In this document: piece after piece, positions 15,935-57,026 of the stretch
How positions within the stretch are numbered: position 1 is the stretch's first letter
Layout of the letters: the number at the start of each line of letters is the position of its first letter
Assembly (NCBI RefSeq): GCF_018398335.1
Contig: NZ_JAHBRX010000001.1
Location: 4,146,001 to 4,210,000 of the forward strand
DNA from: Chelatococcus sp. HY11
GTDB lineage: Bacteria > Pseudomonadota > Alphaproteobacteria > Rhizobiales > Beijerinckiaceae
Length of the DNA stretch: 64,000 nt
Reading direction: 5' to 3'
Position numbers and translations under genes: made by a program
Notes under the pieces: model-generated
Told to the model about the DNA's origin: nothing
The model's database searches: none
What the model saw: only the letters and a program-made list of their open reading frames with translations

Positions 15935-16000
15935 GGGAACGGAGCCTCGCCGGTCATTTCCGGGGTGGCCAGAGGTCGGGCTTGCGGATGACACCTCCGC

Positions 16001-16396
16001 GTCATGGCCGGGCTCGTCCCGGCCATCCCGATTGATGACGCGCTACCCTAGGTCATCGTAGAGGTCTCGCCAATCCGGGTTCATGGAAGCGATTAGCCGC
16101 GTCTTCCAAGCCCGTGACCAGTGTTTCATGTTACTTTCACGCTGGATGGCGTCGATCATCTGATCGTAGACTCGTAGTAGACGAGCCGGGTGATGCCGTA
16201 ACGCTTGGTGTGGCTGTCTGCCAGCCCCTGTCTATGTTCCCAAATTCGGCGAGCAAGATGGCTTGTGACGCCGACATAGATCGCTCCCCCTGGACGACTT
16301 GCGAGAATGTAGACGCAAGGTTGTTTCATTTGGCTCCCCCAAGGCACGCCGGGTAGCCTCACCGATCGGGATGGCCGGGACAAGCCCGGCCATGAC
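16001..16396. mobile_element. Candidate REPIN-like element carrying a GIY-YIG endonuclease gene
   Basis: The left end (16001-16034) starts GTCAT and forms the hairpin ATGGCCGGG-CTCGT-CCCGGCCAT, followed by CCCGATT. The right end (16364-16396) is its inverted copy: ATCGGG, then ATGGCCGGG-ACAAG-CCCGGCCAT, ending ATGAC. Between the ends sits only the small GIY-YIG gene. The same ends, without a gene, form short doublets at 30222-30305, 36834-36907 and 56910-57026. Mobility is inferred from this pattern. No target-site duplication was established. Confidence 0.5.
16043..16329 (-). pseudogene. GIY-YIG (URI domain) endonuclease, broken by one frameshift
   Basis: The N-terminal part from MKQPCVYILASRPGGAIYVG carries the GIY-YIG core (VYIL...IYVG), the catalytic arginine region HLARRIWEHRQGL and TKRYGITRLVYYE. 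The frame then stops at 16156. Dropping to another frame at about 16165 restores a normal C-terminus: YDQMIDAIQRESNMKHWSRA, then WKTRLIASMNPDWRDLYDDL and G, stop at 16045-16043. The join VYYE-(S)-YDQMIDAI is what the COG2827 family shows, so one base appears deleted. A sequencing error is an alternative. An intact product would be about 95 residues, the usual length. Confidence 0.85.
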
Positions 16397-16523
16397 GGCG
16401 ATTGTGTTGCAAAAGCCAATGGTCCACTCAGACGGGTCGCGCGGCGTTTGCAATCGCACCGCTATCGGCCGCGCTTGATCTCTGATCAAATCGGACGAGC
16501 GTCCATGCCTCCTCGCTTTGAGC

Positions 16524-16556
16524 GTCATGGCCGGGCTTGTCCCGGCCATCCCGATT
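16524..16556. repeat. Single copy of the GTCAT palindromic repeat
   Basis: GTCAT followed by the hairpin ATGGCCGGG-CTTGT-CCCGGCCAT and CCCGATT, in the same orientation as the left end at 16001. It lies 130 bp beyond the right end of the GIY-YIG element. No inverted partner is found next to it. Confidence 0.75.
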
Positions 16557-30221: not shown

Positions 30222-30305
30222 GTCATCCCGGCCTTGAGCCGGGGATCCCGATCGATAGGGCAGTCGCCTCGAATTCGGGTTGGCCGGGTCAAGTCCGGCC
30301 ATGAC
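30222..30305. repeat. GTCAT-ended inverted repeat doublet between pheS and pheT
   Basis: 84 bp starting GTCATCCCGG (hairpin CCCGGC-CTTGA-GCCGGG, then ATCCCGAT) and ending with the inverted form (TCGGGTTGGCCGG then TCAAG, then TCCGGCCATGAC). The ends match those of the GIY-YIG element at 16001-16396 in sequence and orientation. No gene lies inside. It fills most of the 128-bp pheS-pheT gap, and transcription presumably reads through it. Confidence 0.75.
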
Positions 30306-36833: not shown

Positions 36834-36907
36834 GTCATCACCGGGCTTGTCCCGATAGGAAGGGCGCCTCCATAATTCGGGCTGGCCGGGACGAGCCCGG
36901 CCATGAC
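36834..36907. repeat. GTCAT-ended inverted repeat doublet between cdd and the PNP gene
   Basis: 74 bp. The left end is GTCATCACCGGGCTTGTCCC and the right end ggccggg-acgag-cccggcc then ATGAC, inverted relative to each other. Inner boundaries read CCCGAT on the left and TTCGGGC on the right. It has the same ends as the elements at 16001, 30222 and 56910. Confidence 0.75.
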
Positions 36908-56909: not shown

Positions 56910-57026
56910 GTCATCCCGGAAGCCGCGGAGCGGCTGACCGGGATCCATGAACACAGTCGGCGCTCCAGGGATACTCGCTGTGTTCATGGATCCCGGGCTC
57001 GTTGCTGCGCAACGCTCCGGGATGAC
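56910..57026. repeat. GTCAT-ended inverted repeat element with 19-bp inner arms
   Basis: It starts GTCATCCCGG and ends CCGGGATGAC. Left hairpin: CCCGG-A-AGCCGC-GGA-GCGGCT-GA-CCGGG. Right hairpin: a CTCGTTGC-TGC-GCAACG core within CCCGG...CCGGG. Between them are 19-bp perfect inverted arms (CCGGGATCCATGAACACAG at 56938-56956 and its complement at 56978-56996) around 21 nt. It shares terminal GTCAT/ATGAC and CCGG with the other elements. Confidence 0.75.

Follow-up and report, generated by a model that had tools for sequence, protein, structure and literature searches.

Does a small nuclease gene that lies between two inverted palindromic repeats form a unit with them, and what could have spread such a unit through a genome? 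The question is raised by a short locus of Chelatococcus sp. HY11, whose 6.95-Mb genome (G000) was analysed over a stretch of 64,000 nucleotides (G000:C1:4146001-4210000), referred to here as the window. A first-pass annotation, made from the sequence alone, had read positions 16001-16396 as a candidate autonomous element, in which a GIY-YIG endonuclease gene may mobilize or maintain the palindromes (REPs) at its ends in a distinct and possibly undescribed partnership. Judged from the open reading frames, the neighbours of the site are presumably lepA on one side and a gene for an HrpB-like helicase on the other.

A broken gene among three palindromes

Two tagged hairpins, at 16001-16026 (+) and 16371-16396 (-), carry their GTCAT heads outward and their CCCGAT tails inward, and the arms 16000-16041 and 16356-16397 are 90% complementary. 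In this respect the inverted hairpin ends had been described correctly. The two-ended unit requires amendment: REP1 and REP2 do bracket the gene (Table 1), but a third REP was overlooked, whose hairpin at 16524-16549 (+) is inverted to REP2 and 100% complementary to it over 33 nt. The REP build at the site is a GTC tag, the 9-bp stem ATGGCCGGG, a 5-nt loop and a CCCGAT tail. With up to three mismatches allowed, the window contains five matches to the hairpin pattern where 0.10 would be expected, and the tagged pattern read backwards has no match in 199 genomes. Three other loci had been cited as having ends of the same kind. All of them exist, and those at 30222 and 36834 are gene-less doublets, but these two have mixed stems and the one at 56910 belongs to another repeat.

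Table 1. Features of the site and related repeats in the window.
Feature	Position	Strand	Remarks
REP1	16001..16033	+	GTC tag, 9-bp stem ATGGCCGGG, 5-nt loop, tail CCCGATT
Second part of GIY-YIG gene	16046..16171	-	Profile positions 53-94; frame differs from first part
First part of GIY-YIG gene	16159..16329	-	57 aa, ATG at 16329; PF01541 above cut-off
REP2	16364..16396	-	Inverted copy of REP1; upstream of gene
Spacer REP2-REP3	16397..16521		Inverted relative to congener G087
REP3	16524..16556	+	Inverted to REP2; REP also present here in gene-less congener G055
Gene-less REP doublet	30222..30305		Two different stems: one arm of window REP type, one another stem
Gene-less REP doublet	36834..36907		Two different stems, one of window REP type; one arm imperfect
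Doublet of further repeat type GGTCATCCCGG..ATCCATGAA	56910-57026		Repeat differs from window REP type

A doublet resembling the 56910-57026 type stands, by eye, at the lepA site of another Chelatococcus genome (G015), and the repeat was noted also for locus L051. Rfam gave no match between 15900 and 16700 up to E = 1, and a structured RNA at the site was rejected accordingly. An ORF that starts at an upstream TTG (16156-16419, -) includes REP2 and continues into the nuclease (PSWPGLSRPSRS); annotation could therefore mistake the REP for an N-terminal extension of the protein.

The gene itself is not intact, a correction to the first reading. The PF01541 profile matches the first part, the remainder sits in another frame, and the two frames correspond to positions 1-54 and 53-94 of the nuclease profile; because of this split, the window copy is called a remnant. 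At the same site, the congener G087 has an intact 95-aa gene (L019), to which the first part is 96% identical over 54 residues. Differences from this gene amount to eight synonymous and one non-synonymous in the first 53 codons, on the basis of which the breakage looks recent, and to six synonymous and seven non-synonymous in 38 codons of the second part. The apparent frameshift may come from a sequencing error. A protein of ~95 aa with a single GIY-YIG domain is also the form of most homologues, 108 of the 113 loci gathered below matching the profile over its full length. NCBIfam models matched the first member scanned below their cut-offs, and the group I intron endonuclease model gave weak matches, below cut-off for the member shown.

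The only other PF01541 match in the window genome falls within a 765-aa frame, presumably UvrC, and with the gene at the site frameshifted, the autonomy proposed for this copy finds no support. The genome holds 30 exact REPs of the window type (repeat 1) without an intact partner nuclease. Whole cassettes are not dispersed in it, as it contains one such gene.

Homologous nucleases and the repeats beside them

Matches to the window protein were found in 107 of 199 genomes of the family, none of the 107 having more than five nuclease matches. Loci from the family and a wider set, comprising the best 80 loci from 84,980 species genomes (more exist), numbered 113, of which 105 were usable and eight were dropped for having <150 bp on one side. 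The 105 include L019 and L055, which are the same gene (L055 being Chelatococcus asaccharovorans DSM 6462), L044 and L070, which have the same flanking REPs and are probably one locus, and L052 and L053, which share a site. Since a finder of perfect stems gave low counts, a tolerant finder was used along with a motif-free comparison of the flanks.

A GTCA-tagged hairpin lies within 300 bp at 79 of the 105 loci (21/31 in the family set and 58/74 in the named set from the best 80), compared to 1/30 control loci of ParE and 3-12/105 for five permuted tags. Where hairpins stand on both sides, the nearest pair has its heads outward in 38 cases, inward in 7 and in the same direction in 12. By these counts, many homologues are located near tagged hairpins, mostly with the heads outward. 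The motif-free comparison points the same way, with inverted scores of at least 16 at 65/105 loci, 0/30 ParE loci and 83/1000 randomly mismatched pairs. Direct scores of at least 16 are nearly as frequent (56/105) because REPs are palindromes, and the orientation therefore rests on the tags. Homologues without the repeat, named beforehand as evidence against a partnership, do occur: the strict tagged hairpin is absent at 26/105, though some of these loci (L053, L054, L040) carry repeats with imperfect stems.

Titles of the hairpin-bearing records include Dehalococcoidia, Planctomycetes, Scalindua, Elusimicrobia, Uhrbacteria, Bacteroidetes and Deltaproteobacteria, and most of the records so titled are metagenome bins. 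Base statistics were drawn from 125 REPs at 73 loci, six of the 79 having been dropped (two duplicates, three doubtful hairpins and the window copy). Beyond GTCA, which was itself used for finding, the base preceding the tag is C in 105 of the 125, the second stem base is T in 122, and the tail begins with C in 124, C in 115 and then A in 108. A multi-copy tagged palindrome, predicted to be cognate, is found near the gene. Chance or intergenic clustering is rejected on the excess over expectation in the window, the empty result for the reversed pattern, and the ParE and permuted-tag controls.

Two loci are unusual in their architecture. At L042, inverted flanks of ~155 nt, far above REP length (score 122), surround the GIY-YIG gene, while G084:C1:1765901-1766542 holds two GIY-YIG genes of equal score 483 bp apart, likely a tandem duplication.

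The cleanest control is offered by nucleases that share a genome, since host descent is then held constant. The set comprised 55 loci (53 full-length and 2 partial genes), 54 from 22 multi-nuclease genomes and 1 from a single-nuclease genome; 40 stretches were picked among the matches listed and the other 15 belonged to the loci already described, so that they represent a subset of the nucleases of those genomes, with none dropped. Four genes each were taken from G095, G162 and G019 (5, 5 and 4 matches). The two flanks of a gene match each other at 37/55 loci, leaving 18/55 without matching flanks, whereas between different nucleases within a genome the flanks match in 6/45 pairs. Sharing is confined almost wholly to similar proteins, with 5/5 pairs at 69% identity or more against 1/40 below (Fisher p = 4.9e-6), a line drawn post hoc with the table already seen. 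Many of the 40 dissimilar pairs are uninformative because the flanks of one of the two genes do not match each other. Where both genes pass the own-flank test (27 pairs, 12 genomes), similar proteins share in 4/4 pairs and dissimilar ones in 0/23 (p = 5.7e-5). As judged from these flanks, the repeat follows the nuclease even inside one genome. A Mantel test (r 0.48, 0/5000) was set aside, since host descent confounds it, in favour of the within-genome test. With this specificity, the hairpin counts and the mostly outward bracketing, the partnership of nuclease and repeat proposed by the first-pass annotation is supported.

Copy number gives a coarser test, because the nuclease search covers all clades and the pattern a single repeat. 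Exact copies of repeat 1 average 11.2 in the 107 genomes with a nuclease match against 2.0 in the 92 without, and within-genus permutation was as extreme in 0/10000 trials; the relation is positive in 16/28 genera, negative in 7 and tied in 5. By these figures the repeats are multi-copy, with a higher average number in genomes that have a nuclease. The expected link between repeat number and nuclease presence is therefore found in the means but not in every genome. At least one REP of this type occurs in 33/92 genomes without a match and none in 27/107 with one, and G055, a Chelatococcus genome, has 11 REPs with no nuclease match.

Filled, gene-less and scar-like sites

Four Chelatococcus genomes (G000, G087, G055 and G015) could be compared at the window site. 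G000 and G087 have the REP-gene-REP arrangement plus a third REP; G055 has a single REP, matching REP3, and no gene; and G015 has neither the gene nor a window-type REP, its place being taken, by eye, by another palindrome doublet. Between G000 and G087, the REP2-REP3 spacer agrees in 95/125 columns when inverted and in 48/125 when read directly, so the DNA between the inverted REPs has flipped in one lineage. The outer flank of the third REP of G087 is uncertain because the contig ends shortly beyond it.

The genus contains a second nuclease clade, with one gene in G015 (L052, with one internal stop) and two in G087 (L053, L054). All three are 49-53% identical to the first part of the window gene, and identity to the first G087 protein is 44-48% for L053 and L054. 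The inverted repeat that brackets both of the latter is a different one, GTCATCCCCGGCG..GGGAAGGGGATCC (repeat 2), copies of which also lie near L052 without a clean inverted pair. Exact copies of repeat 1 number 30 in G000, 25 in G087, 11 in G055 and 2 in G015; those of repeat 2 number 53 in G087, 9 in G000, 6 in G015 and 2 in G055. Each repeat reaches its highest number in a genome that has, or had, the nuclease belonging to it; G015, with its stop-bearing gene, has few copies of repeat 2. A single copy of repeat 2, with no gene, stands at the L054 site in G000, and G015 shows there, by eye, a repeat followed by an apparent gene start with the rest absent, which can be read as a deletion of the gene; G055 differs beyond this site.

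Filled and gene-less states also occur at a Sphingobium plasmid site flanked by fnrL and a gene for a response regulator, where seven records carry cassette DNA and four have both neighbours only. Four of the seven carriers were read at base level, the other three being counted from the listing; three have open frames, and that of TomTYG73 is broken. Among the gene-less records, TomTYG64 and TomTYG74 possess a single double-headed palindrome, which looks as if the first REP had contributed its left arm and the second its right part, and TomTYG72 and TomTYG65 have no such REP. This scar fits a loss of everything between two REP arms; alternatively, the cassette may have been inserted into such a palindrome.

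The polymorphism of empty and filled sites anticipated by the first-pass annotation was therefore found, in Chelatococcus as well as at the Sphingobium plasmid site, and by comparison of these loci sites appear filled, gene-less or scar-like. Such variation would be expected of an autonomous mobile element, with the direction of change mostly ambiguous. The genomes compared gave no sign of transposition, of a duplicated target or of amplified cassettes, and offered no clean insertion point at which a target-site duplication could show. The idea that the nuclease itself mobilizes the repeats finds no support in these comparisons.

Related systems and a proposed nuclease-repeat module

The nearest known counterpart is Ssn of Neisseria. 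Chenal et al., in Nature Communications in 2025, are said to have described it as a nuclease that cuts single-stranded DNA site-specifically at the NTS repeats of Neisseria, and reportedly found many homologues of differing specificity. The enzyme is also said to modulate natural transformation. A homologue in N. gonorrhoeae, which we take to be Ssn, is 47.8% identical to the congener protein over 97% of its length and lies among palindromes of the CGTCATTCCCGCG type. Both systems thus pair a small GIY-YIG protein with tagged palindromes. They differ in that the window copy is frameshifted, in stem (ATGGCCGGG) and tail (CCCGAT), and in the nearest two repeats, which point inward in N. gonorrhoeae and outward in the window. 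An N. gonorrhoeae record (L169, 2.17 Mb) is filed as a plasmid in PLSDB but, by its length, is probably the chromosome.

If the Ssn work is as reported, the general nuclease-REP partnership was already known, and the kind is not undescribed, as had been thought possible. Candidate additions would then be the link to alphaproteobacterial CGTC REPs, the lock-and-key relation within genomes, the relation to copy number and the turnover of sites. Among the publications listed, none joins GIY-YIG with REPs by title or start of abstract, which is not the same as absence from print.

Free-standing GIY-YIG homing endonucleases (PMC1564403) share the domain and are present or absent at given sites. The window-type genes resemble them in both respects and in their weak matches to group I intron endonucleases, but are bracketed by palindromes that are themselves multi-copy. 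Rfam gave no match to an intron at the window site.

The association itself is real and well supported, and the locus is an ordinary, broken copy. In our judgement it is probably, with appreciable room for doubt, the remnant of a decayed nuclease-repeat module, in which an Ssn-type GIY-YIG protein of ~95 aa was paired with inverted CGTC-tagged palindromes as its predicted cognate sites and spread was nuclease-driven and homing-like. The nuclease would bind the tag and hairpin and cut one strand when the repeat becomes single-stranded, as during replication, repair or DNA uptake. Repair from another copy could then spread or retain REP-gene-REP cassettes and REP doublets. Such spread would be selfish, in the manner of homing, and the gene would often be lost later while the repeats stay behind. 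On the loci compared, it is no more than plausible that the repeats owe their spread to the nuclease. A transposase-like path is unlikely, since GIY-YIG enzymes are not known to form covalent intermediates.

Other explanations fit parts of this evidence. Nuclease and REPs might serve the host by limiting or directing recombination and DNA uptake, with the bracketing marking or protecting the locus and spread not being the point. The reported effect of Ssn on transformation and the few non-synonymous changes in the first part of the window gene would suit such a role, which we nevertheless consider unlikely in view of the patchy distribution (107/199 genomes), the nuclease broken here and in one of the four Sphingobium copies read, the apparent gene loss at the second site in G015, and the occurrence of one Sphingobium site both with and without the gene. 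It is more doubtful still that the enzyme cuts single strands while the REPs multiply passively, by template switching or slippage, with the gene as a hitchhiker. Against it, the number of copies goes with the matching nuclease for two different repeats in one genus (4 genomes); in its favour are the persistence of 11 REPs in G055 without a nuclease match and the Sphingobium scar, which fits recombination between REP arms.

There is very little to recommend the view that no partnership exists and that REPs are terminators or intergenic settlers beside which small mobile genes land by coincidence. REPs are indeed common in these genomes, and those of the site are intergenic. Genes for ParE, however, which are small, often mobile and from the same bacterial family, have a tagged hairpin at 1/30 loci and an inverted score of 16 at 0/30, and within one genome the repeats follow the nuclease. 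Hardly any credence is due to a REPIN that a RAYT transposase moves and in which the GIY-YIG gene is a passenger. The inverted, heads-outward doublets, and REPs on both sides of an enzyme gene, do recall REPIN/RAYT systems (cf. PMC3116915, PMC2817692); the tag is CGTC rather than GTAG, and the enzyme is of the GIY-YIG and not the Y1 kind. PF01797 (Y1_Tnp) matches in 0/4 genomes of the genus against 5/14 control genomes, so that RAYT mobilization finds no support at Pfam sensitivity in these four, and the earlier distinction from RAYT systems stands. In addition, a survey of CGTC-positive species (PMC3733652) states that CGTC sequences flanked no tyrosine transposase gene in them.

The same paper (Di Nocera, De Gregorio and Rocco 2013, PMC3733652) states that CGTC REPs "apparently lack a dedicated transposase" and lists the dRS3 repeats of Neisseria as CGTC-1; the term "GIY-YIG" does not occur in its text. 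As described there, CGTC REPs are found mainly in alphaproteobacteria. The window repeats share with them the CGTC tag, a stem starting with AT and head-to-head dimers, their 9-bp stem and 5-nt loop being the sizes given for families 3 and 4. The window REPs come within the tag, stem (8-9 bp, starting AT) and loop (4-5 nt) ranges and have a short unpaired tail, which is CCCGAT rather than the CCA of most CGTC REPs. By sequence, the window repeats fit CGTC REPs.

A bolder proposal is possible, although we would stop short of calling it probable. Small GIY-YIG nucleases may be the dedicated enzymes that the CGTC REP superfamily as a whole has been missing, with each lineage carrying, recognizing and spreading its own palindrome as lock and key, in many bacterial phyla and via cuts in single-stranded DNA instead of a transposase; the window would hold one such pair just after the death of its nuclease. 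It would join two bodies of work, on CGTC REPs, which are widespread, mainly alphaproteobacterial and were without an enzyme as of 2013, and on single-strand-specific GIY-YIG nucleases. With the repeat predictable, within one genome, from the identity of the nuclease, the question of the enzyme behind CGTC REPs can be tested at the bench, for which many natural nuclease-target pairs are on offer, and the later fate of orphan REPs could be traced from the window pair.

Double-headed palindromes, with GTCA..TGAC at both ends, were also noted at L174, L175 and L033, the one at L033 lying ~460 bp past the start of the match. They made up 17 of 485 tagged-hairpin counts on both strands of the loci at that stage, and are possibly scars of lost cassettes or doublets.
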